The position numbers and the translations under genes are program-made. From Tubulanus polymorphus (taxonomy: Eukaryota > Nemertea > Palaeonemertea > Tubulaniformes > Tubulanidae), in contig NC_134030.1 of NCBI RefSeq assembly GCF_964204645.1, positions 21,891,210-21,955,209 of the forward strand: 64,000 nucleotides of DNA, written 5' to 3'. The notes below the pieces were generated by a model. It saw only the letters and a list, made by a program, of their open reading frames with translations. It searched no databases and had not been told where the DNA came from. Shown one piece after another: positions 17,305 to 54,800 of this stretch (the first letter of the stretch is position 1; each line of letters starts with the position of its first letter).

Positions 17305-17322
17305 ATGAATGAATCAAGATGA
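17305..17322 (+). promoter_or_regulatory. Short upstream ORF overlapping the B1 start codon
   Basis: A five-codon uORF (MNESR, then TGA) ends within the B1 initiator, the TGA sharing bases with ATG in the arrangement ATGA. The same arrangement is kept at the start of B2 (51821-51838). Such overlaps can allow termination-reinitiation control, but no functional evidence exists here. An AG just before GTAATGAATG could also be a 5' UTR acceptor. Confidence 0.35.
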
Positions 17323-17433
17323 AGAATCTATGGAGGAATCCGCAGCGGTGTTTAGTGATCTGCGTGATTTTACTGTTTTATCTCATAGCGTACAACAACA
17401 GCCCAAAAGCGTTTAGACTTAAGAGAAATACCG
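17319..17433 (+). CDS. B1 exon 1: signal peptide
   Basis: The start reads MKNLWRNPQRCLVICVILLF, a basic N-region followed by a hydrophobic core, then YNNSPKAFRLKRNTG. It ends in phase 1 at GTAAGA. In B2 the same exon (51835-51949) keeps the hydrophobic core despite several changes. A second frame starting at 17309 is also open for about 35 codons in both copies, but it stops before the donor and cannot join the Ig exons. Confidence 0.75.
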
Positions 17434-20400
17434 GTAAGAAAACGTGAAAGAACATATCATAGAGTATATATGGAAAATGTATTACATAAGATAAAACTTA
17501 TCACCAGACTTTGGAAAGATCTGGGACAAAATGGTAGTTATTCAACCACTTGAACTGATAAAATTTAATGCTTCGAATTAAAAAACCTACAATCTCTTAA
17601 GTGTTTACATTTTACAATGGAAAAGCCTAGAGCTGACCTCAATGTCACAGTAATCATAGGAATTCCCCACACAATGTTCTGCAGTAAGTGTATACTGTCT
17701 ATAACGACTGAATTGTACCAAATATCTACATACATTGATTCTGTAGCCTCTGAATGTATTGATAAGTACCGTCAGACTGAAAAGGGTTTAAATCGGTACA
17801 ATTAGTTTGAATATTGACCGTGGCAGCATCTCACAGGCTGTGTCTTAAAATCATGGTTAATGCGTGTGAATATAAGTTTTGAAAAATACCAAACAGATAA
17901 TTGTTTATTTCTTGTTAAACCTCTTCAAACGGTGACAATTTTCGGAAGACAATTTCCTTAAACAAGGGGCTGTAGTTGCTCTGAAGTCGGTTTAAGGTGA
18001 ATGAAATTGAGATGTTAATTGGTCAATTTTGAACAATGGCTCTGACAATAGAAAGCTATATATTGCCAGCACCTGATGCAGTTGTACTGGACAGTGAGAA
18101 TGTATTACCGGGAACAAGAATATTACGTATATTGTGTATTTGATATTTCAGCACCTGATGGAGTTGTACTGGACAGTGTGAATGTATTACCGGGTACAAG
18201 AATATTACGTATATTGTGTATTTGATATTTCAGCACCTGATGGAGTTGTACTGGACAGTGTGCATGTATTACCGGGTACAAATATATTACTGTCGCAGGA
18301 AGGTAAAACTGTTAGTATTACCTGTAAACAGAGCAGCTCTACAGCGACTGATGTAGAATTCCAGCTACAAGTGAATAGTGGAGCAGGAGGGACCTGGACT
18401 GCATTACCTACAGCATCAGCACCAGTTTGGGATGTTGTACTTGAGGCTGGTAAAATGTATAAATGTGTAGCCATTAATTCAGCCAGATTTAAAGAAAGTC
18501 AAATCTACCAATCAGATGTAATCAGTGAGTATGGCGGGAACCTGTATGGTTCATAAAAAATGCAACTGAACCTAATTCAATATTGTAGAATGCAAATGGG
18601 CTAAAAAAGAAGCTTACGACTTCAAAGGGACTCCCACAATCAGTTTAGAAAAAGACGAAAAGATCGTGAAGTAAATGAATTTATGTTAGATCTTCGTTTC
18701 GGCGTTAAATTCATTGTCATCTTCAGACAAATTCAAACGTTGACTCTACAAGAACTTATCGTCTTTTCTGAACTGATTGACAGATCTCTGGTACTGACTC
18801 GGATGACAATTACTAAACCAGTAGCCTTCATACATTTACTGTTCATTGTCGGTTGTCTGACAATACATGTATTTTTGTGCCAAATTTCAACGCTCTTATT
18901 CTCTGTGGAAACAAGTCAGCATATCCTTTCATTCAGCACTTATCAAATAATGCTGGGTAAATAGAATAAAAGTTTCCTTTGCACTTGGTATTTTTTGTAT
19001 ATATTTTGTATTGTAGGTATAAAAATAAATGAAAACCCGTGTAAGCTGCATGAATTCAAACCATCACTGGCTTGTACTTGTAAAGCCACTAGTAAGGTCG
19101 GTAATTCAAACATGGCGGTAAAATGGTACGCTGATGGATTTACTGAAGGTTCAACGGATATTGATCAGATCCCCGATCAAGGCGTGAATACTCCGATGAA
19201 AGATGGAGTTATCAACAGGAATCAGATGCGGTTTAATTTAATGCTATACGCAATATTGATTCAATGTCGGTTATGGAAGTATAATGGGATAGAGTTACCG
19301 AAACTAACACTTCAAGAACAAATACTACATCAAACTCCAATGAACGTTACGTGTAAGTTGGAGAATATTTTCATAAGAGAATTTTCATACGATATCAGAG
19401 TGACAATAATGCATGTTACATCGTTTATTCTATTGGTAACTGCCCATAGTTGGAGATTTAAGAGTTACTATTTCATAACGACTGGTGATCATGCCGATGA
19501 AATTCTTTCGTTTTAATATTTGGTCCCAAGAAGGTATTTCAAATACTGAAGCGAATTGTTAATAATAACATTAAAAGGACTAGAATATGATTGTGCATGT
19601 ATTTGCTTTTGAAATCGAACTTACTGGAAAACGATTTCACCTTCTATGATTAGGGCCTAGGCTTAAGATTTTGAGCCCTCATGGAAAAATTGCAGCGAAA
19701 TTGGTAAAAATGTTGACATAAAAAGTTCGTTTCTGTAACAATTGTCGTCTTCGGGTATTCTTATGGCTATATCAGGGTTTTTTAATTTGTAATATGGGAC
19801 AAAGCTTCTTGAACCGGGACAATAGGATCACGCACAACTCACCAGAATAAAGGATTATTTTCATGAGTGCGATAGATACGCCACCTATCGTTGATATGTA
19901 TTGTTGCAAAAACAAATAAACTATATTACAATATAATTATGTCGGGAGTTACACCGTTACATTTCCGTCGATTCAAATTTCGACGCCCTTGATAAACACA
20001 CATTCCTCGGAGCGCAAGTAATATTTTACCATGTTTTATGGACGGACGTTTTCTCGATTTTGCACCGATCAGTGAAATTGAAGTGGATAAACTTGATATC
20101 ATCCAAAAATATATTTGCATCTTTATCTTTCAGATTTTCCCGATGAAATTGAAACACCAGATGCTTACACCGGACAACCTGACATTAGAAATGAAGGAGA
20201 AGTTGTAGAATATACTTGTAGAACAGTGATAGGAAGGCCCGATCCTACAGTGATATACCAACAGAAGAGAAGAGGTTCTGAACGATGGCAGCCAATTCCT
20301 GATCCACAACCTCGTAAAGTACCTCTCAAAATGGGTTTAAAAGGTTTTGACACGACGTACAAGTTCAAAGCTGATTTCAAACTGCACAATGGAACGTCAT

Positions 20401-23400
20401 TTCGATGTGCTGTAAAGGAGAACCTTACGTTTCCAGAACCTCAGCAATTTAATCAAATCATTGTTCATTGTAAGTATCAGTTTCTTTTTCGAATTCGAGA
20501 AATAAATAGTTTTCCCTGCAACAATACAGACCCCAGTGGTAGTGCAGACCTATCCACACATATAGCATGTCACAATGTTACCATGCTAAGCAGGAACATG
20601 ACAGAGTCTCGCGATGTCATCAGGTTCGAATCCCTGCCGAGGGAGGAACGTGGAAGAGTCTCACAATGTCATCAGGTTCGAATCCCTGCCGAGGGAGGAA
20701 CATGGCAGAGTCTCACGATGTCATCAGGTTCGAATCCCTGCCGAGGGAGGAACGTGGCAGAGTCTCAGGATGTCATCAGGTTCGAATCCCTGCCGAGGGA
20801 GGAACGTGGCAGAGTCTCATGATGTCATCAGGTTCGAATCCCTGCCGAGGGAGGAACGTGGCAGAGTCTCAGGATGTCATCAGGTTCGAATCCCTGCCGA
20901 GGGAGGAACGTGGCAGAGTCTCGCGATGTCATCAGGTTCGAATCCCTGCGAGGGAGGAACGTGGCAGAGTCTCACGATGTCATCAGGTTCGAATCCCTAC
21001 TGAGAGAAGATGGGTCTACTATGACAGGGCTTAAGAACTGTGCTAGGTCAGATATAACTTTTACTAATGTTTTGTTTGTTTTTCAATCAGATTTTGCTGC
21101 ACCAGTTTGCAAGAAATCCAGTGAAAATAAAACAAATGCAGCGTATATTGTAACAATTAATAGTTACCCATTGACTCAACAAGTTACATGTGACCCTCCA
21201 GCTGTCGTTCAAAAACTATCAAACTATCAGTGGAATATAACGATACCTATCGTAAATAGTACCACAACTGACTATAGAGGGCAGTGTTTGGCTGACGGTA
21301 TTAATGAAAGGGTCATTAATGTCACTGGTTATCATCACGCCGGTCCAACTGATGAACCAGGTAAGATTCCGGGTCACAACTGGGTAAAATGATTTAATTC
21401 CATGAAACATGATAAAACTCGAGGCCATCATCTCTTAACTCGAAATCATTTCTACACAATCAAAAAATTTACTTACGAAAGTCGTTATTTTGATAAATTG
21501 TCACAAAATAACCTATTAATATATTTCATAGTCTCAATTTACTAAGTCGTATGTCGTCACATTACTGGAGTTGTCTCTATCATTGGGTCTCATTTTACTA
21601 GGTGTAAGTCGTCATTCATTTGAGTCGTCACAATTCGTATTCGAATCAGCCACCAGTATTTTACCTAACCTGTAACTCAATTAGATTAGTCAGTACAGCG
21701 GATGAGTCTTATGGGAAATCCGTGCGCGATGACGTATTTCTCTGTGTCGTCCGAACTGAATGTATTTTTTGTGAATATATCACATTCAAATGTTACACAA
21801 TGATTTAGCATCTTTAACTTTCTATCTTGAGGCTTGAGGCTGACCCAATCAAGGAACAATTAATTTTCTCCCATTTCAAAAACAACTTATATACTTCATT
21901 TAGAGAAAATTTGAGCTTTGAAAGTTAAGAAGCAGTTACTTTTTGCTTGACCTATTTAATTATTCAATTCAATTGCTGTTGTTTTTATCAATAGTTACAA
22001 TGGAACTATTTCTAGCTTTATATAATTCAATTCAATCGCATCACTGATTTGTTTAAATTTCAGTTCCAGAAGAAGGGACTGGGGGAATAGTGTTTGCTGT
22101 AATCAGTATACTGATATTACTGATTCTGATAATACTGTTTATAATGTGTCTTTGTGGCTGCTGTAAGTTTTACCTAAAACGATCATTTGATCTGAAAAAC
22201 AATGATAAACAAACTGCAGAATCAGAATACTGTGTTATTTCTAATTGACAGTGCGGTGCAGAAAACCTGATGATGAACTGTGTAGATGTGGAAATTGTAA
22301 GTTATGTAATTATTCAAATAAAGAATGCTAGAAATTGAAAATAGTGCATAAGGCCGGATGGATTCTAGAGCCCTAAGATAACCAGATACAGTTGATCCTC
22401 AATTATCTGTCCACATTTTTAAGCCGGGACCCTAGTTGCGCAGTATCATTCAAAAAGTGTTCGTAAACTATTAATCTGGTCTTAAGTTGTTAGTTCGGCT
22501 ACAAAACTAAAACTGTCTTAAACTGGCCTTGAATGTTAGCCATCACTGTGCACATTACAAAACATTTAGTTGAAACACACAATAAAATGATGTTATCTGC
22601 AATCGTAGATTTTCCCCTGACAAAACCGGTCTCGATAACTGAGAGTTCATGAGGTCTGAAATCAGTCACACTTCTAGATTATGCTTAAAATTGCATACAT
22701 GGGCTTAAAGAAACAACACAATTTTGTGTGCTTGCGTTTGACAAAAGATGACGATTCAAAAAATGATTGTATTGTTTTTTTTTTGTTTTCAGCACTGAAT
22801 TTCAATAGTATAAGCCGTGAACTAATGATTTGTAATTGTCGCACCGAGGACTCGTCGGACGATGAACTATGTGTTTGTTGTTGCTGTAAGTGTCATAGAA
22901 AAATACCATCGTAGAATCATAGAAAGGAAAATCAAAAATTAGAATAATTTGTTTGTTTGTTTTTAGTGACTTGCAAATTACACGCTGCCGATGAATCTGA
23001 TAATGAGGATGACTCCTCAGATGAACTGTGTCATTGTTGTTGCTGTGAGTTCTATAAAATGACCTTTTTGAAAGTGATAAAGATCATTTGTCAATCACGG
23101 AAGAATAAACTTATTTTTTTAAAATTTTCTATTTGCAGTGCTGTGGAGAAGTGAGCCGTCTAGATGTAATTACTGAAAGTTTTATTAACATTGAAAACAT
23201 TGATGATTAATCCTGCAAAATTAACTGTTATTGTCATTGGATATTCACGAATTCAAGAATGTTTGGAACTTAGAAGAACAGAATGTTATCATTTCTGGGA
23301 TTCAGCGCGGGTTGGGTCGTAGTTTCAGATGGCTGCAAACATGAAATGTTGCTACGACCAAACATTCTTCGGTTCATTAAAAATCATTTTGATAGAAACC

Positions 23401-26400
23401 GCCGCCATAGGTTTTCTTAGCCTCCAGGAGAAGCTACTATGTAACATCGTTCTCTTCACAAATCCATTTTATAATGTTTAGCATCATTCAACTTTCAATC
23501 AATTTTCTAGACACAATACGCGCATTATTCAGACCAGAATTTAGGTGCACGAGACGCATTAAAAATCTAAAGCCAGAATATGCATAACGTTTATTTATTT
23601 TCGTCTGACATCGATCACTTTCAGATCTGAATCAGTGCGGTCTAAATAAACCGTCATTTTTATATCTATTGCACAATGCAGCATTAATCAAATTATATAA
23701 TGGCTAATCAGTAGCGAATGAATTACTCGTAGATGCACTGTCTTGGGTACAGGCTCGATACAAGTCACTGCGGGGTCACAAATCAACGTTGATAGGTTAA
23801 GATTACTTGCCGACGTAGGTTCTCCATTTTTCTCGTTGGGAAGTATCGTTAAGTTGTTGGGTGACGATAGTAATAAATTATCACATATGCCCACCGGGTA
23901 TCGGTAATGAAAACTTGCGTCCGGTTCCTTGTCCCAGTTACCATTTATTGCGAACTAGAAGAAATTCTGTGAATTCTGGAATTCCGTGATTCCGAAATAG
24001 TACCGGTTTAAACTCCGGTCAAGTTACGCAGTATCATTGGTTCAATTGTCTCATGGCATTAGTATCCATGACTATCTTTAGTGGGTGGCTCCATGAATAT
24101 CCAAATCACACTGTTTCTTTATTGGGTTGATTTGTCAGGTGAACGTGCATCGTGTAAATAAACAGTATTTCTGTTTTCTAATTTACAGTACCGTGTTTGG
24201 GTCCGAAATATAAAGATGTGATTGAATTGTTGCGTTGGACAAGTGAAACCTGGTATGAAAAAGGTAAGATTCTCTCACATGATTTACTGCACATATTCTC
24301 AGATATCGGTTTGATAATTTTAGGTGTTGTTTTCTCTTTGTAGATCATGAGAATTGGGTGAAAACACGTGACCAACTGCAGCCAGGTATTTATAGAAGTA
24401 TTAACCCTTTATTGCAGGAACACGTTGAAAATCTTTCATGAATACAGTTCATACGTAAAATGCGGCAATAGAGGATTCCCATTGAAAATAAACTATACGC
24501 GAGAAACGTTTTTAGATGTCGTCTTTTTTCATGTTTATCTGTAGCTAATATTTGTGTTGTTTGTTTAACAGTTAAAACTGGAGACTTTGAGACAATTGAC
24601 AGTTTCAGTCCAGGTATATTAGATATTTATTGTGATTTCATTTCAATCAAACAATATAAACTCAGATAATTCATCGACAAATCAACTACTTGCTCGTAAC
24701 GTCGATGAATTCATTTAAAAAAATCAATTTATCGTAAATTTTTCTTTCTAGAAATTGTTAGAATAATTGTCGATGTTTACGGAACTGAGAATGATTGGGA
24801 GATAACGAGAGATACGGATAAACAAGGTAAGAGGAGTGATGACTCAGTTGCCAGGGTAAGTGTCAAACCGGCTGAATGGTTTGTTGCAACCCGGGGCCGG
24901 GTTTATAGACTGGTATTAACTTTAAACCCGGGGTTAGTTTAATTAATTTTCAATTAAGTTAGCCCCGGGTTAAAGATAATACCAGTCTATAAAACCGGGT
25001 CCTGCATACAATACTGTACCGGAATATAACACTTCCCCGGGCCTCCTATCTTCATCCAGCAGTAATTCAAACTGTTTGATGCTCAGTTTATTTGACTATT
25101 GAATAAATGCTTTCTATATTTCATTTCAGCAAAAGCTATCAGAGAATTCCTGTTTGGACAATTATCAAGTGATCCAAGTAAGTTATTGTTTACCTATAGT
25201 TAAAGTGTTAGTTAAAGTTATGTACATGCACATGAGTGTTATGTGAACATGCACATGTGAGTTCAGTTGACATGTGCACATGTGAGTTATATTTACATGT
25301 TCATGTTATTATTACGTATACATATGAGTAATACATGCATGTACATGTGAACATGTGCATGTGAGTTTACCTGCGATGTGTTTTAATTTTAAGTAGAGTT
25401 TGGTCAGTTTTCATACATTTCCAGGTTTGTTAGATTTGGTGAAAGAAATTCTAAGTAAGTTCACGAAATGACTCAATATTTCCTCTTCAACTCGAATCAT
25501 CGATTCAAATGTGTTTATAATTATCTATTGACAGGAAAATACGCGAGAATAAACAATTTAAAAATGAAACTATCAAATGAGATCGGTAAGAGTTGATTGA
25601 ATACAGTTATTGATTTATGAGTTTATTGATTATTATTCTACTGTCAACTCATTTTGTAAATGTATTACAGATACATTACTGAACAAGAAGAGGTCAATGG
25701 ATGGCGCTGATGCAGTTTATAATAGAGATGAAGGTACCGTTATTATTGACTGTTCAAATGAAATATTCAGCTTTGCTGATAGAAATGTGGCGAATTCTAT
25801 TCAACATGGCCGCATGGCAGCCTTTTGGCAATAATCTATATATCTGATAGAAGCGACCAGTTGACAATTTGTAATAATTCAGTGTGTTATTTCGTGAAAT
25901 GGAAAGTTAATCTAATGCCATTTTTGCCTCAATTCGTACCGTTTTTGCCAAATTGGATGCATCAAAATTTGAGATGAAAATTTCATCTTAAAGATATCAG
26001 ACTAAAGCTTCAGATATACTGAAGTTACAACAAAATAATCAGATTTACACAATCCAGACCAAAAAAAAACTAATTGAGAAATAAGATGTGATACAAACTA
26101 TGGGTAATGATACAACATGAAACAAAATTTCAAATCTATTTTTTCCGTGTTTCAGATGAAGTTCATGTTAGTTTTATGACGCAATTGAATGAAGAGAAAA
26201 GACCCCTGACAAACAAAAAGAAACAGTTCACCAGAGATGGTCAGTAAAACTATGAATTCTATCTCTGAGTTCAATTTTCACATGTAGTTGACTACACGGG
26301 TTACCAAGGAGTCTTAAAAAGTGTTTAAAGAACTTACTGACAATAATGGCTAACTTTTTGGAAAAAGGTCTTCCGCATTTTTCAAGTTTTATACAGATGT

Positions 26401-29400
26401 CTGTTAGTAATAAGATAAAATCCCACTATTTACAGATTAAAAGAATTTAAAAACAAGAATTTATTTATTAAATCTAAAATATTTAAAAGACACGACGTTT
26501 CGATCTCACCCTAGAGATCATCGTCAGGTGTGTGAAATAGACTTAAAACAGGGGTATATATACAGAGGGGGACAGGTTAATTGAGTAAATTGGTGAGTGA
26601 GTAAATAATTAGTGTTTGGCAAGGCATGAAGTAATATACTTAGAAAGAAGGGAATTATGCGGAGAAAAGCCATTATTTAAATTGGTACTAATATCTGAGT
26701 GACGAGTAATTAGGGCAGACTCAACTATGTGGCGTTTAGTGTAATTGCTGGAAGTATAAATAATTTCGGCTTTATCAAAATTAAAACGATGACCAGTGTT
26801 CCAAACGTGATTGGCTACGCCACTTGCCGGTTTTTGATTTATTATATCCTTTTTGTGTTCCGAAATTCGAGTTTTTAAATCACGACCAGTTTCTCCAAAG
26901 TAAATTTTATCACAGCCAAAACAAGGAATTTTGTAAACTCCGCAGTCCAAAGGTTTAGATGGAGAAACTGGTCGTGATTTAAAAACTCGAATTTCGGAAG
27001 TAATGATTAGTCATGTAGTGACCGTGGTTCAGTGATTCATTGTGTCACCAATATTTAGGATTTATCTGTATTTATCGATTTTCAAAATAAAACGAGCGAC
27101 AAAAGAGCAACTGCTCTGCGTGAATCACATTCAGCTTTTTTGTCAGTTTCAAATCCCCAGTAAACGGTTATAATGAATTTCTATATTTTCAGTTGCTTCA
27201 GCAGTTGAATCTATTGTTGATTTGTTTGCTAAAATGTCCGGTAGGTTCCATAATTCATTTCAGTAAAAATACTGTGAAGTTTGTTGTGGAATCATTGAAT
27301 AATTGATTGTGTTTATTTTTACTGTAGATGCTGAATTATGTGAACGGGGAATATCCAACATAAAACGTAGGTTTTAATTCTCATTTTATCCTCAACTCTT
27401 TATAAATACATGTGCTCTATAATCTACCGTACATGTGCATTTTCTCTGTACGTGTACATGTCAGTTCTATATACACATACATGTTAGTTCTCTGTACATG
27501 TACAATACTGAAGTATTTGTAAATTCTGTGGTAAATACTTTTTCGTTATATTTCAGCAACTGTTGAAATTGCTGGTAAGTTATGATATTCACTATGATGT
27601 TTAAACTGGTGCTGAGTCTGTTCAATTATAACTGAAATATCGCTGTATCTTTTTATAGAAATGTTTGTAAAAGAAACACTTCAAACAGAAGTTAAACAAC
27701 AGAATGGTGAGTGTTTAGTTAATCTAGGAATCTATCAGGGGGGGGGGGTTACAACTATAAACTGATTACAAATTAAACATATTTTCTCTAATTACAGAAA
27801 ACCTCGTCACACAAATAGAAAACCAGAAAGTAACTGATAGAACAAAGATAGGTTTGTTACACGATAAACTGATTATCATAATTTATCCATAAATTATTCA
27901 GATGTTGTCAATATTAAACTATTTACCGGTACTAAAAAAGTGTAGATACAAATTTATCCTGCAACAGTGAATAATAGAAACTATCTTTATGGTTGGTATT
28001 ACAGAAATGGGAGTGGCCGACCTGAACCGTTCTGTGAGCAAAGATATCTGTGGTAAGACTGAAAATGTTATTCTTTTCTTATTTTTTACGTTTATTACAA
28101 ATCGTTTCGTTAATGAGAAATCCGAAGTACAATAAAACCAGCTGGACCCGTACCGGTGATGTGGAACAATTGGTAACTTTGTCGAAATTCATCTGCTCTG
28201 TGGGAAATTTAAGGTTTTATAAAACCCGGTTAATCCAGATGTATTTTGGTGAAATTCTAGTTTGAACTGATCTGGTCAATATTCATAATCATCCGGAAAT
28301 ACGGAGCGAACATTTGGAACCGATAAAATTCATCCGCTTTGAGTGAAACTCGAACTTTTATGAAATCCAGATGTACTTGGATGAAATTCTAGTTTGAACT
28401 GATCTGGTCAATATTTATGTTATTCTATTCATGTATTCATTTGTAGAATCAGTTTTATTGGCGTCAAGTTTGCAGAAATTAGAAGAGAACAAAAATTCGA
28501 CAGAACTAGATAAAAGTAAGTGTAAACTTTCTTTGTCCCTCGAAAAACTAAATTCACAGAGTATTTGATGACCATGAATTGAAGATGAAATTTATTGATG
28601 TCAGCAGCAGATCGTCCTAGGCATCTGTTTTGATTCAGAGCCAAGTTTTAAGTGGTGTTAAACTAAGAATGTATCTAAGAGACAGTTTGTATCGATGTGA
28701 ATAATCTTTTGACTATGTTTTTCATCAGTTGTTAACAGTTGTTAGAAAGTAACGCAGTATCATTGTTTCAAGTGTCTGCTTAAAATCAATCATAGCTTGA
28801 ACAAACCAGGTTTCGACTGTCATGCATATTAGATTCCAATCGGTTGGCTCCGAGAAAATCCAAATTACATCATCATTAGAGGATGGCTCCGGGTGGACGT
28901 GACATCCACTCTAAAATGTCCAATTACTGGGAAATTAGTTTCTGTTTTGTTAATTTAGTTGTTCATCTGTTTTCAGGTATTTATGAAATAAGTCGAGATG
29001 TTTTAGGTAAGAACTAAATATAGCGATATACCAAGCAATAAATCGAGAAATAATATCGAGGTCTTGGGTCGAAAGATACGGAAACGTCCTAGGGACATAA
29101 TTAATTTTTTAATATTTTTTCTGATTGAAAAATCATAAAATTAAGTAGAAATTCGATTCTTTATTAAATGTTATATTTTTTCGATCGGTCAAAAAGGAAA
29201 AAATAAATATTCCGTGAAAAAATGTCGGAATTAAATCAACGCTGGTCGAAATAACATTTAATAAAAAATCGATTTTTTATTTAATTTTATAATTTTTCAA
29301 TCAGCAAAAAAATAGGAAAATTTATTATGTCCCCAGGACGCTTCCGTAGAAAGCAAGACGCTCTAAAAGAAATTATCAGTTGACAAATTGTAAATGATAT

Positions 29401-32400
29401 TTTCTAGTTGTTTTTCGTGATTTTCTGTTTAAACAAAAACTTGTTGCATTGAATTTATTTTAAATGTTTGAGTAGATGAAAAAGGAAGCCTCGATGTTGC
29501 TGGATGCAGATGTTGTGATGTAATCATAAATGATTTCTTTTTTCAGAAATTAAATTGAAAATCGCAGTTTTCAAATCTATCAAAGGTAAGAGGTTTATGT
29601 ATGGAATATACATCAGAATCAGCAGGGTTTATTCCATCATATTCCAAGATTCAACCTGAGCTCAATCATTTTCCAAGAACTCAATTGTAGAATTTTACGC
29701 TGAACGAGCTGAAAGATTTCAGAAAGAACTCGAAGAGAAACTGAAACAAGAGGAAAATGAAGAGAGAAAAAATGAGGAGGAATTGAACAGAATGATTCAC
29801 AGTTCAGTTGGTCAGGCGTTTAAATATATCACTGATATAAATGAAAGTAAATATCCATTTTGTATCTCAAATTATACACACATGTGGCAAAGTACATACA
29901 CATAAAATGATTATGTTTACACATGTTACATGCACATGTGCACAAACACGTAACATGTACATGTGCATTATATTCGAAATGTTCTACGCACAATGTATTT
30001 TTACATGTTTCATGTAGAGTCGAATGATAAAACATGTTTATTGATGTAACAGTGATTTTCATCGCGATTTGTGTGAGAAGGACTGAATTATGGCGGATGG
30101 GATAAATCACTCACTGGTTTTCCCGAGCCTTAGAGTTCACTGGTACCAGAATTCAGCCGTTCCAAAGAACTCTAAAAGACACTGGGGAAGAATTTATCAG
30201 AACTTTAAACTGATAGTAAAAGAGTTTATTTTACGAACGTCGTCTTCTCTCTAAGAGCATGCATGCATAGGACATTTTACAGAATGGCGCCCGAAACCGA
30301 CATAAACCCACTCAGCCCCTGCTCACATTTCATGTGAATGTACGTACATGTCACATGTGAACATGTTACATGTGAACATGTAATGAATTAATGTACTTGT
30401 AACATGTTCATGTAAATTAATGCACATGTAACATGTTGGTTCTCTGATAAATTTCAGAAAATCTTATGGATAATAAAGTTGTAGGATATGGAGGTTTGTA
30501 TATAATTCACATGTTTCAATCACAAACCAGTTTTTATCATGAATAATCTGTTTGATTTTCTCTATTTATATTTCAGCAAGTCCAGAAGAGATAAGTGAGT
30601 TCTGATTTATATTTATAAATATTCTCAGTACAGTAGACTGCGCGCTTGCCTTTATTTCATGTTGTAATTTGTCATATTTACAAGTTTATAAGTTACTTGT
30701 GATGTCAGTGATTTTCTATATTGATAGATTCTAAACTACATGAATTAGCCGATAAAGAGTTTGAAGATAGGAAAGGTACTGTACACATTACAAAGTTATA
30801 CATTTTTAGCCTACTTCGGGCTAAAGTCCCAGCGGGCTATTGCGTTCACTTATCGTCCGTCGTCCGTAGACGGAATCCAGTTATTTTGGGAAGTTTTGAA
30901 GACGCTTCTTTGAATTGTTTTGATATTGGATTTATACATGTATCTACCCTAGACACATCTTCGGCCCAAAAACTGGCCCTGTTAGTCAAGATGGTCGAAT
31001 GGCGGCCATTTCTGCGTTTCTCGCCGTTTTGAAGTTCTAAAGGCAAATTTAGGTTCTATCTCAACTATTTATAATCTGTTTGTAAACGGCCATAAAAGCT
31101 TCGTGTTTCGTCTGCAATTCACTGCAAATAGTTATATTTTACTACGTATGCCAATCTATATGTTTTAGACTGATGTACACTCGTTTGATCCACTCAATCG
31201 TAACAGTTCCTCAGCTTCACTTCGTCATTATCATTTATTAACTTCGCCATATCACATCATATACTTACATTGTGCCTCGAAACACTAAGAACTGAAATAA
31301 TGGAAATGTATGCACAGCCAAAATACTGAAGTGCGGCCATTTTTGCTTTCTGCTGCTTTGCGTAAATCCCTTAATTGCGTGGAGTGGGGCCAATACGTCC
31401 AGTAGACCAATAGAACTAGTCCACTGGACCAGTACCAATACAGCTTCTCCTAAATGCGTAACACTGTGATCTTTTTGTGCCCAACAAATTAACTTTGCCC
31501 TGAATTCCGAAACTGTAGCTTCCGATTGGTTGTCATTTATCACTGAAATTCGTGTTGGGTACTGCGTGATGTGTTTACTTTGAAAAGGGATCTTAAACAT
31601 ATCAGACCGGGTTTTCCGATAAGTTGATGTTGAATCGAATAATGAAATTTTCTGATTGTTGAGCATTTCAAATCACTTCCCAACCGGGTGTGGTGTCCCT
31701 GGAACCCTAGTTTTATGTTTTAAATCTTATTGATGTTTATTATCAATGTTTATTACAGTCGGTTACTTCAATACTTTAAAGACACCTGAAGAAATATTGC
31801 CTCTAACACTGAATATACCGACACAACTCCGCACCGGTAAGTGACTACCCTGAAACTGTATGTTTGTTATTCAGATTGTAATAATTGTAATAAATTGTGA
31901 TAATTTTGTTTGGAATTCAACACTAGACTCTGCCTTAAATGAGTTGAGAATCAGGCAAATCCGTTTATCATTATTTCCAAAACTTTTATTCTCTTCGAAT
32001 TTCATTTAATTTTTGTAGAGTTGGATTCAGCTGGCCGGGATCCAGTTATTCTGTCGGATCGAGCAGGTATTGTATAAGTCTGTTAATCTAACCTGTTCAA
32101 TGCCACTGATCTCTTATAACGCCTACTTTTTTCCCAGTGAACAAATCCCGTAAATCTGACTTAAATTCAAAGGAAATACCATTCTTCATAACGCCATTTC
32201 ATCAGTGGCATAAGGAAGGACTTTTACTGTGAAAACTAAATTTTCAGCTTCCTAGGAGCACCAGCCTGAAATATTCTGCAACTGATCTTTGTCCCCGTTT
32301 AGATGATTAACTCTTCTAAGTTCTTGTTAAAAATCCTTAAACTGCGGTATTCGTTAGGAATACCAGAAAATGCTCTTCTATCATATGCCGGATGTTTAGG

Positions 32401-35400
32401 AACAGACCCTGAACACGATGTTCTAATCCCCTGCTTTACTGGTCTTTTAAATGTCCAGCGGAACTGAATGTCTTTAAACAACAAAAGTTTAGAATTGAAA
32501 CCGCACTCAATGAATGTTGTGTCTATGTTTTTTTGTTTTATATGAATTTCAGTGGAATATTTCAAGGATGAATTCATTATTGCAATACAATCTGATGAAT
32601 CATTGAAAACTGCTACTCAAACTGCTTTAGATAACAGTAAGTTACATCTACAGTAAACTACATTTACATCTACAGTAAACTACATTTACATCTACAGTAA
32701 ACTAGATTTACATCTACAGTAAACTACATTTACATCTACAGTAAACTACATTTACATCTACAGTAAACTACATTTACATCTACAGTAAACTACATTTACA
32801 TCTACAGTAAACTACATTTACATCTACAGTAAACTACATTTACATCTACACTAAACTACATTTACATCTACAGTAAACTACATATAATACATCTATACAT
32901 CAACAATTATATATTTATTCACTAAAATTGTCGTTTCTTGAAATGTTTTTCCTTTTTTTAGACTCAAGCAGAACCATTTATTTGCTGAAGAGAGAAAACT
33001 GGAAAGGTAAATTGTTTGATGAAATGTGTGTACAATGTATATTTTCTAAAATCAAAAAATAAATATTTTAAGAACCGCAAATTACTTGTTTATTTTAATC
33101 ACTTCTATGAATTCATATAAACTGCTGATTTTACTGTGTAAAATAATAATTCAACGATTTTCTTCTATTTTCAGTTGTTGATAGAATTTATAATGATGTG
33201 AAATCCAGAATACAATCAATTTCTACAGGTTTGTATTTCAAACGATACGCTATCAATCCTTGTATTAAAATGTAACCGTATTCTCCCCCGGGCAAGCGCC
33301 CTTTTTGTGACCCACATCATATCATGTCAATGTATCATATATCATGTATCATATATCAGCCGGTATGTACATCTGTATAACGGTTTATTCCCATTTCGCC
33401 GCTTATTTATTCCAATTTGGCCTTTTTCCCAATTTCACCCCTTTCCTATTTTGCCCCTTTCCTATTTCGTCCCTTTGTTCACATTTTCGCCTCTTTTTGT
33501 ACATTTTCGATGAAGTTTAGTTTAATTTTCGGAGGGGCTGAAAAAAATGGTAAGGGTGAAATTTGAAAGGAGCGAAATGGAAAGGGGCTAAATGGGAAAG
33601 GGGTCTACTAGGAAGGGCAGACATCTTGTATATCAACACGCACGTCGCATGCACGCACGTCGCACGCACGCACGCAAACGTCCTTAATCATATTACGTTT
33701 ATGTCATTTATGCTTGTAAAATGTAATTTCGAAGTTGATTAACTTCATTTTATTTTTCATCACGGATTGATTCGTTGCTGAATTTACGTTCTATTTCTAT
33801 TTGTGATTTCAGAGGAATTAAATGAACGAGGAATCGTAGCTTATAGAAGTGAGTAAAATGCGTGTTTGAATTATTCGTCAATTCAACAGTGTTGAGTTAC
33901 CCTAAACTCCTTAAACATCAGCAGAAATGAATACTCGTGTAAAAAATAAATCTATAAAAGTAATTTTTGAAAGATGATAAAAGCGTTTAGTCGCAATGAT
34001 ATTCTACAAATGAATAAGATTTAAAGAAATTCAGATTTAAGATGAAAAGACTATAGTTATATAGATAAAGTAAACTGTATTAATTAACCTGTATATATAT
34101 ATATATGTTTTCTGTTTTTCAGTAAAAGATGAAATAGCGAGTAAGTACTGATATCAACTTACACATTAGAGTGAATGATAGCGATTCTCATATAGCTCCT
34201 AACTCCAGTAAACAGTTCAGGGTAACTTGAAATGCTGCTCGAAATGCTGTCTTAAAAAGGAAACATTTCAGAGGCTTCCCAAATTCATCAATGGATAAAA
34301 TTGCCCGTGGAGGCTTCAGGGGTGGATCGAGCCTAGGTTTCTGTGAGTACCGCTCAACTATGGAAGGGTAAGCCTACCTTTATCATAACCCAATTACGGT
34401 ACTCCCTCAGAAAATCGTGAAGTTTTGTAGGAAATATTCATAAAAGAAATAAGAAGTTGACCATTTTCCATTATTCGAATTAACCATTTCTATTACTACT
34501 ACCAGAATACTAGCTGGGAATATAACATACATGTCTGTACAAGTCAATCCCTGATCAAATTCAAATCAACTCATCGATAATAACTCGCTTGCCAGGGGTA
34601 ATTTCTTCCTGTTAAAACGAGATTTCCACGAGGAACTTGAAAAATAGAAGGGTTGTTCTACAAACTGTAGGCTGGATCCACCCCTGGGCGGCTTGTTCCA
34701 CAATTTGGGGCACTACATGTACTATTACTCTTCATGGTTCGTAGTATTTGACTCGCAGTGGCTTTCGACTTAAATGAATAAATCTGTGAAGATGGAAAAA
34801 CTTTCCTGATTGATCTTCGATATCGCGGTTTATTTATAAATCAGTACAATCAATATTCAATCTCTTGTTTATCGACTTGATTTGTAGATGTGAAAGTAGA
34901 ACATGTTTCACTCCCCCTGCAGTAATCTATTGTGTTTATTCTGTTACAGTGAATCACATCAAACCAATTATTGCAAACAGAATTCCAATATATAAAGGTG
35001 AATACATTGTGTTGACTGTTAAGTGTTTTAGTAAACTAGCAAAGAACCGGCCGTCCTGAACGGGTTTTATCGTCCTTGAGTTTGAGTTGATTATTTTGCT
35101 TCTTGTGTGGAATACACAGTTATTTCGCGTAAGGTCGACTGTATTTTGTAGGAGGATATTGTGACGCTATAGCAACATAAATAGTTTACATCAGTTGACA
35201 TTACGATAGTTTCTAAATTAATCTTTGCTCCTCATTAGTTACATTTTAACATTTATAATTACAGGCACACTAGTGACTGTTTTAGAAGAGAAATGTAAAA
35301 AGGCTTCCAGTTGGATATTCAAGAACTGGGTTTATGATATATCTACTGCGAGTAAGTTCACAGTGAAATCAGTTTGTGATTTATAATAGAATTCTATTGT

Positions 35401-38400
35401 GTAAAAACTTGTCTATTGTTTATTACATATAGTGTCTGTACTCAGTGAATTTACAAGTAGAACTTTAAAGACAAACACAGGTTATTGGAAACAAGTCAAA
35501 GAATGTTTCGGTAAATAATAAATTCTTGTTCACCGAACGTTTTATTAAATGATCTGATTTTTATGTTTTGAATAATAATTGTTTGTTCTGTTTGAATAGG
35601 AGATGAAATTAACAGTGAAACAAATACAACTAAACTGAAAAAAATAGGTGAATATTTTTAAAAATTCAGACAAAATTATAGCGTTGAATTCATTAAAGAT
35701 GAAATTCATCAATTTAATCGGATCTTCGGAGGCATCTGTTTTGATTCAGGTCCATGTTTTAAGTGTGAAACTTAAAGTGTTTGATAGCTGCCACTCTTTG
35801 GTCACGTTTTGTACCGATGTGAAAATGTCTTTATTTATTTGTTTATAGTTGATGAATGTTTGAGTGAATGCAGTAAAACAATGAATGATAAATGGATTAC
35901 TGGTGAGTACCCCTCATGAGTGAGTACCTTTTTCGCTAACGCCACGCAACACAATTTTCATCGCAAATCCTCCCGTAAATATTATTCACTAAAATCCGCG
36001 CAAATATTTTCCTCACAAATTGCTCAATTTTTCCCTCAAATCTGCGTGCACAACTAAGAGGCACCCCTTAACTCTCATTTACCACGCAAATAATACTTTC
36101 TTGGCTTTTGAAAGTTAAATAACGTAAATAATTGATATTTTTCAAGGTGCGGTCTGATGGACCAGTACCTTACCAAATTTTTCTGGGGCTCAACTTGGAT
36201 TCATTGTTAATTATATTTAAGACCCTTTTCACCGATATATCAGCCCTATGCTGGCCGGCATCCATCGTTATATCACGTATACGGAATTATTTTTTCAAGA
36301 AAAGACTTTTAAGAATGAATTAAATATTAGTTTATTCTCGATACCAAAATCATTAAATCGATGATAAGTTAAGAACGGTACAGCGTCCATTCCCCATAAT
36401 GAATAATGAATATTGGAATGTTATGTTAATTTAAATATAATAAATATTCTTTTGATAATAATCAAGTACAAATTGTTTTCAATGAGGGCACCTCAAGAAT
36501 CCAGATATGGTGACGGTGAATAAGATATCGACGCAAATATCAATTTGCAATTAGTTTTTACTATGAATACCTTTTATGATTGGACTGGTTCCCGTTGCGT
36601 GAAAAATTGAAAAAATCACATCTTGCGATGAGTTTATCTCAAACTGATTTTCATCGCAAATCGTCTCGCAACGCAAATCATCCACGCAAACTTGCGTAAA
36701 GTTAGTGAATAATGTCCCCGGTACCTGAATTGTGTGAAGACATTTAAATGATGTGATTCATTGATGAAGTTGAAACCAGCAGTATACTAAACCAGGTTGA
36801 ATGACTAGTTTTCTGTGAGCTTGAATTTCATGTATTGATATTTTTAGACGATTTCAAGATCCGCAACATGATTGTAGAGACAGGTAAATATTAGTAGAAT
36901 AGTCAGAACTGATGACGTGGAGAAATATAGTAAGTTTATATAAAACCCACTATATACAAAGTCTTTAGAAGATTAAAAATGCGAAATTTATCTATCAAAA
37001 ATTAAAATCAAAGGACTCAACTTTTCGAATTTTCACTAGACATCAACTCAGGTCTAACGTTGATCTCTAGCGACAGATCGAAACGTTTTGTCCTTTAATT
37101 TTAATTTTTGGTAGATATCGTATAACTCTGAATTACGAATTTATTTACACTCCAACCATTCCCATGGTGTATGGAGGAAAAAACAGTATTTACATAAATA
37201 CAAAAAAAACCAGAAAATAATAGTATTTTAAAACATGACAAACGTTATTTACAACATACTATTTACACACACTACCGGAGGGATCTATATACATCCAGAC
37301 CTAATTCGATAAATTTAGCCAGATTTTTTGAAATATTAAGGTATCAACAACGTATTTGAATTTAAGTAGTTTTCACGGAATTCGGTTAGTAAGTTAAAGT
37401 AAAAAATAAAATGTAGTTCGTCTAATAAAACGTTTTAGGGGGGGGGGGGCATAATATATCGGTTCTTGGTAAATAAAGATTTGAAAATTCATTCACAGGT
37501 AAAAGATAAGATCCAAATCCAGAATTCAAATAAACGTCATCAAGCTGATTGATATAGTTATCAAATTTAGATATCCTTCTTATATTACCTAGGATTAATG
37601 TATAAGGAGTTATTATTTAGCCTAAAATTGTCCCTGTGTGTGCCGGTCACGGAGTATACGGTGTAATTGTTTTATAGATGATCTAGAGTTTACCATGAAT
37701 TGTTGTGTCCAGATATACGACAAACCACAGTCATCTAAAATCTTCTAAAAAAATAATAGCCAGAGACTCTTAGCAATAATCTTTAAAATACAAATTCAAA
37801 ATATTTTGTAGAGAATTGAACTAGGTTTAGTTTGTTCACACGAAATCGTTTTAACTCAAAGATTAATCATTCTAGGCTTTACAATGTAGGAACAATGCCA
37901 GGGGAATTAAGGTAAAATAGTAAATATAAGTACAAGCTTAGGGTAATATACAACATTAAATCAGCACATTTTTTAAGAAATGTCAAGAAATGGAAACTTA
38001 GGGGTACTAAAATACAACCAAATACAACCAAATACAATAGTTAGTTGCAAATAGAAAGAGATCATTGATAAAATGATTGATGATTAATACATTCAACTTA
38101 AATCAATGTATGTTGATAACTTGTATACAGATTTCCTTCTGTGGCATTTTTACCGGTGGCATTTTTTCCTATGTTTCCTATTTTTTCCTAGAAGTTTCAA
38201 AAGTTTCTAATTGACGTGTCTAAATTCGAAATAGTTTCGCGAAGTTCAGTAAGAAGGGTGCAATCAAAGAGAAAATGTTAATCATCCCTGAAAACATCGC
38301 AAATTGGGCACATTCTTTCATTTCTAGGTAGATGGAGATTAGGTAAATTGTCCCCGGAAAAAATGTTCAATTTATAAGGTCTAACTCACATACATTTCGG

Positions 38401-41400
38401 AACTTGCTACATTCTAGTTTTACTTCGCACAAAAACTTATATTTTCGTTTTATCGACATTTACAGTGAGGTGGCGGCACAGTATTCAAATAAAGCTTTTA
38501 AGTGTAATTGTAGTGATCTCTCATCCTCAGCAAGAATGACCTTGTCATCCGCATATAGAATAAGAAATAAATTGAGTAAAGCGTCAATATCCTGATTACA
38601 TCCGGAGTTCAGATTCTCTATAAACGATTAAGTTTTAAAATAGTCCTCAATATCATTCAGGAATAAAGAAAAATTAAGAATAGGTGACTGATGTTCATCT
38701 TGTGTTGTCCTTCAGCCTAGTACTGCCACCTGGTGACTGTATGAGATGTAACTATTCTGTTATTTGTATTATAGTAGAGATTGTTGATGAGATAAAACAC
38801 GTACATTTTCAAACTCCCGAATTTAGAAGTAAGTTTCCAATAAAATCAGAACCTGTTTTAACAACCAGAACTCAAATATTAATATCTGTATGTATTGTAT
38901 TATTATTTATAGGATCAGTTGTGACTGCAGTGAATGAAGCTATCGAGAAATCAGGTAATTGAATATTCATCATAAGTTCGAATTCTGTGTTTGAATTGAG
39001 TTCAGTTTGGCTGAAGGTGCTTTTTCAAAATGTATATACTTATATTTTACAGAAAAATCACAACACGGCAAAAAACAATGCTATGAAGCTGCAGGTTTGT
39101 AAAACTCTAATTTCTGTAAATGAATTTGACCTGATGTGGCTGCTACACAGGACCGAATATCATAGATTAGGGGGCAAAATATTCCCCTGGACCCAGTTTT
39201 ATAGACTGGTATCTTTAACACGGGAGTTAACTTAATTGAAAATGAATCAAGTTAGCCTCCAGGTTAAAGATAATACCAGTCTATAAAACCGACCCCTTGG
39301 CCCTGGAAACTTTTTGAAAATTGTCAGTAGTTAACATAGTTTCTCAATGTTGCTATGGTGGTTGTCACTCTTGTTGAGGATTTTCCCCAAGAGGATCATC
39401 CATTTATTACGTCTGCAACAAATTCAGAAAAAGCCTCGAGTATGCTGATAATAGTTAGATCGAGTCCATTATGTATAAAAAGGGTGGTAGAAAATGTAGT
39501 CACGTGATAAAATTCATCCTGAACAGAATTGAATTTTTTTAAGTTGCGTACAATACGCATTACTATTTACCCCTCCCCCTTTTGTACACAAAAGTATGCA
39601 ATTTAATAAGACCCCCTTAATTGTACAATTTGAATTTTGAGTTTAACCCCTTCCTACCCACAATGCGTACCTAATTAGTGGATGAGCCCTTAAGGGGTAA
39701 CTTTGAACCCGCCCTATGAAACTAGGCCCATGATGATGACCACAAAGATGAGGTAATTTTCAGTTGCTTTCCCTTAAGGATTTTATTCTATTATTTCAGT
39801 GAAATGGATAGCTGATAAAATGAAAGGTAAATTGACTGATAATAATACTCAGTTTCGTGATGAATTTGTGTTGATGTTTACAGAATCATTTCTAATTTCA
39901 GATTTTAAGGTTAAACCATCTGAAACATCATATGGTATGTAATATAATTGTTAAATACAGTTGATTATAACGGTCGCTGTCATCGTTTTTACTGTCACTG
40001 TTCACTCAACACGAACATTTATCAGAGAACAAATATGTAAAATCAAACTCAAATTCAATGAAAATACCATTCTTTAAAACGCCAAAATCATTGTGATGTC
40101 ATATTTTTCATTGGTCGCCATAGTGGCTTAAAGGACTTGCGTATATCTTGTGTGGGTGCCTCATCTGTCAGCCAACTGGGCGGGAAATTGATTTAACAAT
40201 TCACTAAAAATCCTGGCATTTTTTTCAGAGCGAAATGAATTTACTAAACTTGCACGAGAAAAAGGTAATGAATAAATGATGTGTATTAAAATTGATGTTA
40301 TCGATTTTGATAATGTTTTATGATGCTATACGTAATTTAATTTCTATTGCAGTAAAGAGAAAATCAAGAGAGTTGATAAATGAGATATGTGCTATAACAG
40401 ATAAAGGTAATCAATATTTACTTCTATAAACATTTTACTGACTCAATATTTCTATATTCATGAATTCATATTTCCACATTTATATATAACGTGTCTTAGG
40501 GTCCCCAAACCGGAAAATCAGGAATTTCAAAATAATGTACTTTAAATTCATTTGGCGCTTCAACTTTCTTCGGCAATCTTTCTAGAAAATCGCTTTCATC
40601 AACCGATCACCGGTAAAATGTTCTGACGTCACTGTAGTGAATGTTATCTGCTTAATTTCCATCTGGAAAATGAATAATCACCCATGAAATACTCGGGTTT
40701 ATTGACTTCATGTAATTATGGAAACTATCCATAAATTCTGTTCTGATAGGGTTCGGTTTCCTGGTAGATAGCTCATATATTGTTTTCATTTTTTTTTTCA
40801 GAAAAATTAAAATCGAAAGGTTTCCTGGTAGATGAGTCGAGTAAGTAAAATTATACAGTCATCACTTTCTGATTTAAACCATAATCAAATTACATTTTGG
40901 GATGAAATTTAGTTTCGTTTTCGTTTATGAGAAATCTGAAGTATGATTAAACCGGTTTAATCTGGATTACTAGCGGGACACCGGGATGAAATTCATGTAG
41001 TTTGAGAAATCCGGATTTAAAATCGTATTCCATGAGATACTAGTTGATTAGTTGTCGAATAAACACTATAATCCGTGTAAACTGTAGATAAATGAAGAAA
41101 TCCCACACTTCGAATTTGAAATTATACTATCAAATTTATTATTACGAAACCACAACGTTTCGGCTGTTGACTAACAGCCATCATCAGGTGGCATGGTTGA
41201 TTGTTTGATAAAGAGCAGTAACTGAATCAAATCTGGATTAAACTGATCTTGTTTCAATAAGCTTGTTTGTATTTAATGTTCTAATCTCTACTGAACAGTA
41301 TCATAAACAATGTTTGATAATATGATATGAAATCTCTCACTAAGAATAAAAAGAGTGCACAATGTTTCCTTATATTGTTTCCTAGACGTATCGGCGCCAC

Positions 41401-51834: not shown

Positions 51835-54800
51835 ATGAGGAATCTATGGAGGAATCCGCAGAAGTGTTTAGTGATCTACGTGATTATACTGTTGAATCTC
51901 ATGGCGTACAACAACAGCCCACAAGCGTTTAGAGTCAAGAGAAATACAGGTAAGACAACGTGAAAGAACATATCATAGAGTATATATGGAAAATGTATTA
52001 CATAAGATAAAACTTATCACCAGACTTTGGAAACTTGTATTTGAAATATCTGGGACAAAATGATAGTAGCTGAATAGTCCACTTGAACTGATACATTTAC
52101 CTCGAATGAAAACCCACAATCTCTCAAGTGTTTTATATTTTACCTTAAACATTTTAACTATTCAATAATTGTATTTTATCTTCTAAAACTCCATCTGCAC
52201 TTGATTCTTATATCCGGGTTATGCGTCTCCACTACACTCGCAACACGCCTTCAATGCTGAGTTTTCCGCAAAACCTGGGTTGTAGAAACCGTAGTTGAAA
52301 AAGAAGGGTCCACTCCTTATTTAACCACGTTCGCGTAAAACTTTTAGAATTTCTACTAGAAGTGTAGAAAGTAGACCCGCGTTCGGGTGCAACGATTGAA
52401 CTTAAACTTGAACTACAGATTAAGAGAAATCCCACAATAAAATCAGCGAAATGAATTGAAATTTAGAAAAAGACGAGAATATATCTCGAGCAACGTTTCG
52501 GCTAAAACTTATGACCCAATCTATCAGTACACGAGATAGATTTAACAAGATATTTACACAGGAATGTAACAAAGGAACTGAGTGAGTGATTGAAGTTAAT
52601 AAAGATTAAAAACATAGACAAGGAAACAATAGTAGAAAGAGTTAGGCAATAGCAAACGGCAAACTAGGGGTAATCATACTTGTTGAGGTAAATTAAACAC
52701 AAAACCCGAAAGTAAAACGAGGAGGTAAACCACAGGGTAATCTAACAATCACAGAATACATCACAGCCTGTGTCTCAAAATCATAGATAATGCGTGTGAA
52801 TATTAGATCTTAAAAACATCAAATCAGATTATTGTTTATTTCTTGTCGAACCTCTTCAAACGGTGACAATTTGCTTAAACAAGGGGCTCTAGTTGCTCTG
52901 AAGTCGGTTTAAGGTGAATGAAATTGAGATGTTAATTGGTCAATTTTGAACTATGGCTCTGACTATAGAAAGCTGTAATGCCATTCATTTCAGCACCTGA
53001 TGGAGTTATACTGGACAGTGTGAATGTATTACCGGGTACAAGAATATTACGTATATTGTGTATTTGATATTTCAGCACCTGATGATGTTGTACTGGACAG
53101 TGTGAATGTATTACCGGGCACAAGAATATTACGTATATTGTGTATTTGATATTTCAGCACCTGATGGAGTTGTACTGGACAGTGTGAATGTATTACCGGG
53201 TACAAGAATATTACGTATATTGTGTATTTGATATTTCAGCACCTGATGGAGTTGTACTGAACAGTGTGAATGTATTACCGGGTACAAGAATGTTACGTAT
53301 ATTGTGTATTTGATATTTCAGCACCTGATGGAGTTGTACTGGACAGTGTGAATGTATTACCGGGTACAAGAATATTACGTATATTGTGTATTTGATATTT
53401 CAGCACCTGATGGAGTTGTACTGAACAGTGTCAATGTATTACCGGGTACAAGAATATTACGTATATTGTGTATTTGATATTTCAGCACCTGATGGAGTTG
53501 TACTGGACAGTGTGAATGTATTACCGGGTACAAGAATATTACGTATATTGTGTATTTGATATTTCAGCACCTGATGGAGTTGTACTGGACAGTGTGAATG
53601 TATTACCAGGTACAAATATGTTACTGTCGCAGGAAGGTAAAACTGTTAGTATTACCTGTAAACAGAGCAACACTGCGGCGACTGGTGTACACTTTCAGCT
53701 ACAAGTGAACAGTGGGGCAGGGACCTGGACTCCATTACCTACAGCATCAGCACCAGCTTGGGTTTTTAAATTGGAGTCTGGTAAAATGTATAAATGTGTG
53801 GCCACTAATTCAGCCGGAATTAAAGGAAGTCAAATCTACGAATCAGATGTAATCAGTGAGTATGGCGGGAAATCGAACTCATGAATTCGAAATTAATAGT
53901 CAACTTGTCTCGTGATAATTCATTTTTCTTCAAAATGCAACTGAACCTACTTTAGATATTGGAGAACGCAAATAGGCTACAGATTAGCCATTATAATTTC
54001 CACAAGAAAGTTCAGAAAATGGCGAAAACAGGGATGCGGGATCCAAGCTATATTCCGCTGTATTCTAGAATATCAGAAAAATACGAATGACATATTGTCT
54101 AAGGATACCTTATCTTACTGGTCCGGAATGTTTTTAAATACAAGGAAAAAGAGTCATTTTTCAAATTTTTTCGTTGAACTCATAGTCATGTATCAGGCAA
54201 ATTTAAGCGTTGACTCTACAAGAACTTATCGTCTTTTCTGAACTGATTGACAGATCTTTGCTACTGGACTTGGGTGACTGTTATACATTTACTGTTCATT
54301 GTTACTAAACCAGTAGCCTTCATACATTAAGTACTGTTTATTGTTATCGGCTTATGAAAATGTTCTTTTTTCTTGTGTCAAATTTGGACGCTCTTTTTCA
54401 CCGTAAACACAAGTCGGTGGCATGTCCTTCTATTCAGCACTTATCAAATAATGCTGGGAAAATAGAAGAAAATAAAAGTTTCCTGTGCACATGTTATGTT
54501 TTTGTGTAAATAATGTTTATTATAGGTATAAAGATAAATGAAAACCCGTGTAAACTGCATGAATTCAAACCATCACTGGTTTGTACTTGTGAAGCCACTA
54601 GTAAGATCGGTAATCCAAACATGGCGGTTAAATGGTATGCTGATGGATTTACTGAAGGATCAACGGATATTGATCAGATCCCCGATCAAGGCGTGAATAC
54701 TCCGGTGAAAGATGGAGTTATCAACAGGAATCAGATGCGGTTTAATTTAATGCTGTACGCAATATTGATTCAATGTCGGTTATGGAAGTATAATGGGATA

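Follow-up and report, generated by a model that had tools for sequence, protein, structure and literature searches.

A Predicted Receptor Family of Tubulanus polymorphus with Long Cytoplasmic Tails Encoded by Symmetric Micro-Exons

Introduction

How can the cytoplasmic tail of a receptor be built, extended and perhaps varied if it is encoded by dozens of very small exons of identical phase? This question is raised by the gene B1 of the nemertean Tubulanus polymorphus, located in a window of 64,000 nucleotides (nt) of the 268-Mb genome (C6:21891210-21955209, contig NC_134030.1; coordinates without a prefix are those of this window). B1 belongs to a set of about twenty duplicated genes predicted to encode type I receptors, most of which lie in tandem on one contig. 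These receptors, here called B-type, have four immunoglobulin (Ig)-like ectodomain exons and one transmembrane (TM) exon. Immune-type receptors usually have short cytoplasmic tails that rely on motifs and change slowly. An earlier inspection of the letters of the window, referred to below as the sequence-only reading, had described a tail of symmetric micro-exons. Here, the gene was rebuilt exon by exon and compared with its paralogs and with known systems.

Gene Model of B1

The full model comprises five ectodomain exons, the TM exon, 46 internal tail exons (e1-e46) and a terminal exon, together 1368 codons with a single terminal stop (Table 1). Signal peptide, ectodomain, single TM segment and a cytoplasmic tail of about 885 residues lie in one open frame, with the signal peptide and the TM segment judged by eye. 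All internal tail exons between 22252 and 40840 (46 of 46) are flanked by AG and GT, are divisible by three in length and have phase 1-1. Their lengths range from 18 nt (three exons) to 156 nt, the commonest being 48 nt (eight exons). The Ig profile matches, i.e., those of Ig1 and Ig3 of B1 and that of an A-type Ig domain (Pfam ig, E 0.0016), were all below threshold.

The symmetry, splice dinucleotides and open frame described in the sequence-only reading were borne out, and its count of three 18-nt exons was recovered. However, its 47 symmetric exons became 46, and its frame of 1372 codons became 1368 codons plus the terminal stop. A 12-nt exon, regarded there as possible, found no support, since a scan of the B1 introns for 1-1 segments of 6-120 nt with good sites, compared with the paralogs B0, B2 and D, returned only three candidates, of 27, 9 and 15 nt. 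The earlier figures would fit the rebuilt model plus this 12-nt exon. A 36-nt exon behind e3 (Table 1), treated below, had been omitted from the earlier exon list.

Coding Status of the Tail Exons

First, strong AG/GT pairs 15-170 nt apart were counted on both strands. Between 22200 and 42600, the plus strand held 54 such pairs, of which 40 were multiples of three and 38 were open in phase 1, compared to 4, 1 and 0, respectively, on the minus strand; the splice-site model had been trained on these same exons, so this contrast partly reflects training. In the control stretch 1-17300, which contains B0 exons, 23 pairs were found (13 multiples of three, 8 open in phase 1). The strand contrast was weak in copy G (12 open forward, 10 reverse).

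Second, splice-site conservation and in-frame indels served as independent controls in seven paralogous tails (B0, B2, D, E, F, G and H; several incomplete) out of about twenty loci. Exon copies, including the TM exon, were scored by plain nucleotide alignment in which no reading frame was required, using the best match where a cassette occurs twice. Of 329 exon-copy cells, 214 could be scored; 4 weak matches were discarded, and in the remaining 111 the exon was absent from the results or did not align across both boundaries. Both AG and GT were kept in 211 of the 214 pairs, the exceptions being e22 of H, e30 of B0 and the B2 TM exon. For the latter two, an AG-flanked form with a shifted start was found in a separate candidate mapping; as this mapping allowed only multiples of three, it was excluded from the count of length changes. 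Net length changes were multiples of three in 23 of 24 cases (exception: +2 in e31 of H), and none of the 10 genomic matches of the terminal exon contained an internal stop.

Third, indels in exons were compared with those in introns of similar length (at most 1100 nt and at least 70% identical). Exon and intron indels per kb were 1.3 and 27.3 in B0, 1.9 and 19.5 in B2, 1.7 and 30.0 in D, 3.1 and 36.1 in E, 2.9 and 45.0 in F, 9.9 and 54.2 in G, and 3.7 and 37.6 in H. Hence, exon indels were 5-21 times rarer than those in alignable introns. The exon gaps were all multiples of three in B0, B2, D and E, compared to 2 of 4 in F, 2 of 6 in G and 2 of 5 in H.

Splice-site retention, in-frame length changes and indel rarity jointly identify the tail segments as coding exons. 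The opposite reading, that they are AG/GT segments picked by eye or the decaying remains of a pseudogene, is favored by the out-of-frame gaps of F, G and H, by copy H with its broken e22 donor and the +2 change in e31, and by exon substitution that is almost as fast as in introns with a ratio of nonsynonymous to synonymous substitution (Ka/Ks) near 1, no lower than in wrong frames. It is nevertheless extremely improbable in view of the rarity of exon indels, the fully in-frame gaps of B0, B2, D and E, the nearly complete retention of length phase and splice sites, and the stop-free terminal exons.

Attachment of the Tail to the Receptor

The genome was searched with e4-e21, the resulting counts being lower bounds. 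At least 20 matches of e4 were obtained, and 20 of 20 followed B-type receptor exons. For 17 of the 20, an Ig3 match was present upstream on the same strand within 5 kb (the one on C19 being degenerate). One of the other three was a second e4 in the same gene, and two followed Ig1, Ig2, Ig4 and TM exons, with Ig3 not found. Conversely, counting itself, the Ig3 exon of B1 had 24 close matches in the genome (72% identity or more), of which 16 had e4 within 5 kb; of the eight without e4, two (copies I and J) were inspected closely. The intron between the TM exon and e4 measured 357 nt in copy D and 763 nt in copy E. The two e4 matches for which no Ig3 was found (C6:18067003 and C6:22796609) had at first looked like orphaned tails and were rejected as free-standing, given their upstream receptor exons. 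In the B-type copies L021 and L022, no Ig3 exon was found between Ig2 and Ig4, an apparent loss of a whole 1-1 Ig exon.

It follows from the position of e4 and the 357-nt intron of D that the TM exon most likely joins the array, and the sequence-only reading, which had made its case depend on this junction, is supported here by genomic evidence. The 1.1-kb gap between e3 and e4 in B1 would suit two genes, with the array having its own start downstream of the receptor. This arrangement is very improbable, as the phases match and no free-standing e4 was found; the separate downstream gene was rejected on the short TM-e4 introns and the constant position of e4 behind receptor exons.

Cys-Rich Tail Start and a Possible Short Form

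The Cys/Asp-rich exons e1-e3 are unevenly distributed. All three were present in B0 and L021 (e2 partly), some in F, I and L022, and none was found in B2, D and E. The 36-nt exon that follows in B1 has lost its donor, which is intact in the four other copies in which the exon was observed (B0, I, L021 and L022). Read-through leads to a TGA at 23174-23176, while a weaker donor after 23165, nine bases earlier, gives a 27-nt 1-1 exon and keeps the frame. Thus, B1 may skip this exon, splice in the 27-nt form or terminate at this point. In copy J, the tail appears to be short and Cys-rich and to have its own stop, and copy I has Cys-rich exons with no long-tail exon in about 16 kb behind them. About 13 kb downstream of the short-tailed copy I, an exon with a NACHT-like match was observed (L018 6623-6991; Pfam E 4.3e-05, below the cut-off).

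Since the 36-nt exon has lost its donor, B1 might mainly stop in the Cys-rich tail at the TGA, with the long array little used, as the tails of J and I would also suggest. We consider this unlikely: the 46 exons and the terminal exon of B1 are all in frame, skipping or the alternative donor keeps that frame, and in B2 and D, where e1-e3 were not found, the long route alone is left.

Rate of Change of the Tail

Substitution in exons and introns was nearly equal in B0 (0.089 and 0.093) and B2 (0.080 and 0.086). It was lower in exons of D (0.094 versus 0.134), E (0.098 versus 0.128), F (0.101 versus 0.144) and H (0.111 versus 0.136), and higher in exons of G (0.137 versus 0.113, with only 240 intron bases). 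Tail Ka/Ks ranged from 0.81 to 1.08, with every interval spanning 1, and the codon positions diverged almost equally. In a wrong-frame control, the two wrong frames gave values of 0.58-1.10, i.e., the true frame did not stand out. The ectodomain and TM exons gave 0.75-0.90 (J, 0.52). Replacements in the tail were mildly conservative, with a mean BLOSUM score of 0.003 (as high in 2 of 200 simulations) compared to -0.230. Strong purifying or positive selection on the tail was considered, and neither was shown, as the Ka/Ks intervals include 1 and the wrong-frame controls were similar. The tail keeps its frame and splicing, while its amino-acid sequence drifts or diversifies at about the rate of the ectodomain.

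Tail Identity, Helical Periodicity and Cassette Duplication

A comparison of the tail with Pfam and structure databases had been proposed earlier and was run with Pfam, NCBIfam and PDB; by sequence or profile, only sub-threshold matches were obtained. Pfam returned only Med15_N (E 0.5), the best NCBIfam match had E 0.0045 (16.6 bits, cut-off 300), and phmmer found no PDB chain, the best PDB hit in the profile search having E 0.47. A scan of the B1 tail for immunoreceptor tyrosine-based inhibitory (ITIM) and activation (ITAM) motif patterns gave no ITIM-like match and three widely spaced Yxx[LIMV].

The hydrophobic moment of e4-e46 peaked at 90-100 degrees per residue (z 5.7-5.9 against 60 shuffles), in a composition with 4.6% Gly+Pro and 34% charged residues. 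This periodicity, shown statistically, is that of predicted amphipathic helices. It was equal across exon junctions and inside exons (0.99 and 0.98, p 0.90; 42 and 29 windows), which speaks against single exons as independent structural units.

An old internal repeat aligns e14-e16 with e31-e33, with three coincident exon junctions. This pair had been selected in advance from a profile match; 1 of 2000 shuffles was as good, and the hhalign self-match of the tail had a P of 0.006. A young repeat is seen in the neighboring genes, where 11 exons between e24 and e37 are doubled in B0 and 11 between e25 and e37 are doubled in B2. Matches of e34-e35 suggest about 1-3 cassettes per gene (by position, lower bounds), and e23-e30 were not found in E, F and G. 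In these genomic comparisons, the array has evidently gained and lost cassettes among paralogs.

Constitutive Scaffold or Combinatorial Tail

We lean towards a helical scaffold that is spliced mostly constitutively and has grown as class 1-1 cassettes were duplicated. The 1-1 phase, inherited from the Ig modules, would have allowed cassettes to be duplicated and deleted in the DNA without frameshift and the gene to be extended on the cytoplasmic side, so that genes would now hold roughly 1-3 copies of the cassette around e24-e37. The tail would form a long helical scaffold or rod, spliced mostly constitutively. Such a receptor might bind an extracellular ligand and use its cytoplasmic helices to recruit or cluster partners, and the length and surface of the tail would diverge among paralogs at a nearly neutral rate. 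At the Cys-rich start, alternative splicing on a limited scale may decide whether a short or a long tail is made.

Several points weigh against this scaffold. The Ka/Ks values of 0.81-1.08 are also expected from weak constraint, and wrong frames behave similarly. The hhalign self-match reached a probability score of just 6% despite its P value. The exons not found in E, F and G (e23-e30) and in B2, D and E (e1-e3) suggest that much of the tail is dispensable in some genes, and the broken donor of the 36-nt exon could make the short form the main product of B1. Finally, the gene is known here from genomic DNA, and constitutive splicing is inferred.

Alternatively, the micro-exons might be individually included or skipped, so that one gene makes very many tails, as an intracellular counterpart of Dscam or of the schistosome micro-exon genes (MEGs). 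In favor of this, each of the 46 internal exons is symmetric, and exon blocks not found in some paralogs leave the remainder in frame. Shrimp Dscam is described with 7 skippable tail exons (PMC6851185), and the small symmetrical exons of MEGs are said to allow alternative splicing (PMC4350168). The sequence-only reading had held that any exon can be skipped without frameshift. Of 1081 possible skip junctions, 1013 stay open, while 68 create a stop, all of them from the TM exon or e1-e3, which end in T, so the earlier statement is not strictly correct. However, symmetric exons are also expected from class 1-1 cassette duplication, and symmetry alone does not show combinatorial splicing because nebulin exons are 97.25% symmetric (PMC9222585). 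Moreover, the scores of most splice sites clearly exceed those of typical AG or GT (under the model trained on them), and the helical periodicity crosses exon junctions. As for mutually exclusive exon clusters, a trait of the hypervariable Dscam, no array of versions of one exon was noted in B1, although no scan aimed at them was made. Individually chosen micro-exons are an improbable account of the B1 tail.

A wider version of this idea places the hypervariable part of the receptor inside rather than outside the cell. Splicing and cassette copy number would then assemble some 45-60 symmetric micro-exons of each gene into a very large number of different helical signaling tails. This version is decidedly doubtful; if true, a receptor could have different partners from one cell to the next.

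Gene Order and Features of the Window

The window holds tandem units of A-type and B-type genes (Table 1). The alignment blocks shared by B1 and B2 are 72-97% identical, mostly 82-93%, and the B2 tail, in which e1-e3 were not found, runs past the window end. A genome search for COX1, molluscan hemocyanin and GFP families was negative; the last two also matched none of the control genomes, which makes their absence uninformative. The tails of the A-type genes (12492-13094 and 48121-48723) are unlike the B tail and carry the repeated Tyr motifs YVNI, YMDM, YIDM and YATV, which we take to be suggestive of PI3K-type and ITIM-like sites.

An 82-bp tandem repeat was observed at the start of Ig1 in B1 (18067-18290), B2 (52987-53624), L021 (52-319) and L022 (2001-2516). 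Each unit includes a 3' splice site together with the opening codons of Ig1, which could leave several acceptors in competition. The Ig3-Ig4 intron of B1 contains a tandem repeat with a period of 52 bp (20592-21010). On the minus strand at 26609-27010, an open reading frame has a weak GIY-YIG endonuclease match (E 0.00068, below the cut-off); this would fit a fragment of a Penelope-like element.

Table 1. Features of the window and exon model of B1.
Feature	Position	Strand	Remarks
B0 (neighboring paralog of B1), 3' end including terminal exon	1..7153	+	Paralog alignment, terminal-exon match
A-type gene	9780-13094		
B1, B-type gene under study	17319-42780	+	
B1 first coding exon	17319..17433	+	Start and signal peptide (judged by eye); ends in phase 1
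B1 Ig1 exon	18234..18524	+	1-1; Pfam ig E 0.016, below cut-off
B1 second ectodomain exon (called Ig2)	19017..19352	+	1-1; no convincing Pfam match
B1 Ig3 exon	20134..20469	+	1-1; Pfam C2-set_2 E 0.021, below cut-off
B1 fourth ectodomain exon (called Ig4)	21091..21360	+	1-1; no convincing Pfam match
B1 TM exon	22064..22162	+	1-1; hydrophobic stretch judged by eye
Cys/Asp-rich tail exons e1, e2, e3	22252-22296, 22793-22885, 22967-23044	+	
36-nt exon	23139..23174	+	Donor lost in B1 (GT to GA); normal 1-1 exon in other copies
Long-tail exons e4-e21	24189..29585	+	18 exons of 18-84 nt, all 1-1
e22	29691..29846	+	Longest tail exon, 156 nt, highly charged
e23-e38	30458..36883	+	One set in B1
e39-e46, C-terminal micro-exons	38775..40840	+	All 1-1
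Terminal coding exon	42539..42780	+	TAG stop
Second A-type gene	about 45240-48723		
B2 (paralog), from about the Ig1 exon on	53568..64000	+	Start approximate; signal-peptide exon outside model

Comparison with Known Systems

The B1 family contrasts with the usual short receptor tail: its tail of near 885 residues is encoded by dozens of 1-1 micro-exons and changes at a near-intron substitution rate, with frame and splice sites kept. The B-type tail offers a clear case of class 1-1 cassette growth on the cytoplasmic side and makes the splicing diversification of receptor tails a directly testable question. Among the listed titles and abstract openings of open-access papers, no Ig receptor with a micro-exon tail of the B1 kind was found.

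In MEGs, very small exons, the majority with lengths divisible by three, make up most of the coding sequence, and dN/dS is high, some mature regions exceeding 1 (PMC10526429, PMC4350168). B1 resembles them in its symmetric internal tail exons, its ectodomain exons being larger. The schistosome comparison made in the sequence-only reading stands for gene structure, by description; it does not extend further, as the products of MEGs are secreted and their exons measure 6-81 bp (PMC10526429), whereas B1 is a predicted membrane receptor with an Ig-like ectodomain and a TM segment in frame and tail exons of 18-156 nt. Arthropod Dscam is a membrane receptor of the Ig superfamily (IgSF) with tail exons that can be included or skipped, i.e., an Ig receptor with a splice-variable tail is already known from shrimp. 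PmDscam has 44 exons in all, of which 7 tail exons are non-constitutive, and its tail exon choice can shift the frame (PMC6851185). In comparison, the 46 internal tail exons of B1 are all 1-1.

Titin and nebulin share with B1 a repeat protein made from long runs of symmetric exons (PMC9222585). They are muscle filament proteins, whereas B1 is a predicted TM receptor whose tail matched no Pfam family or PDB chain. Finally, phase 1-1 is usual for Ig modules, and shuffled class 1-1 modules are mainly beta and mostly extracellular (PMC8001218). Both the Ig exons and the internal tail exons of B1 belong to class 1-1, in which growth by intronic recombination keeps the frame, but its tail consists of cytoplasmic micro-exons with helical periodicity. 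With a tail outside the families in the searched libraries, B1 combines two known kinds, an IgSF-like receptor family and a symmetric micro-exon gene.

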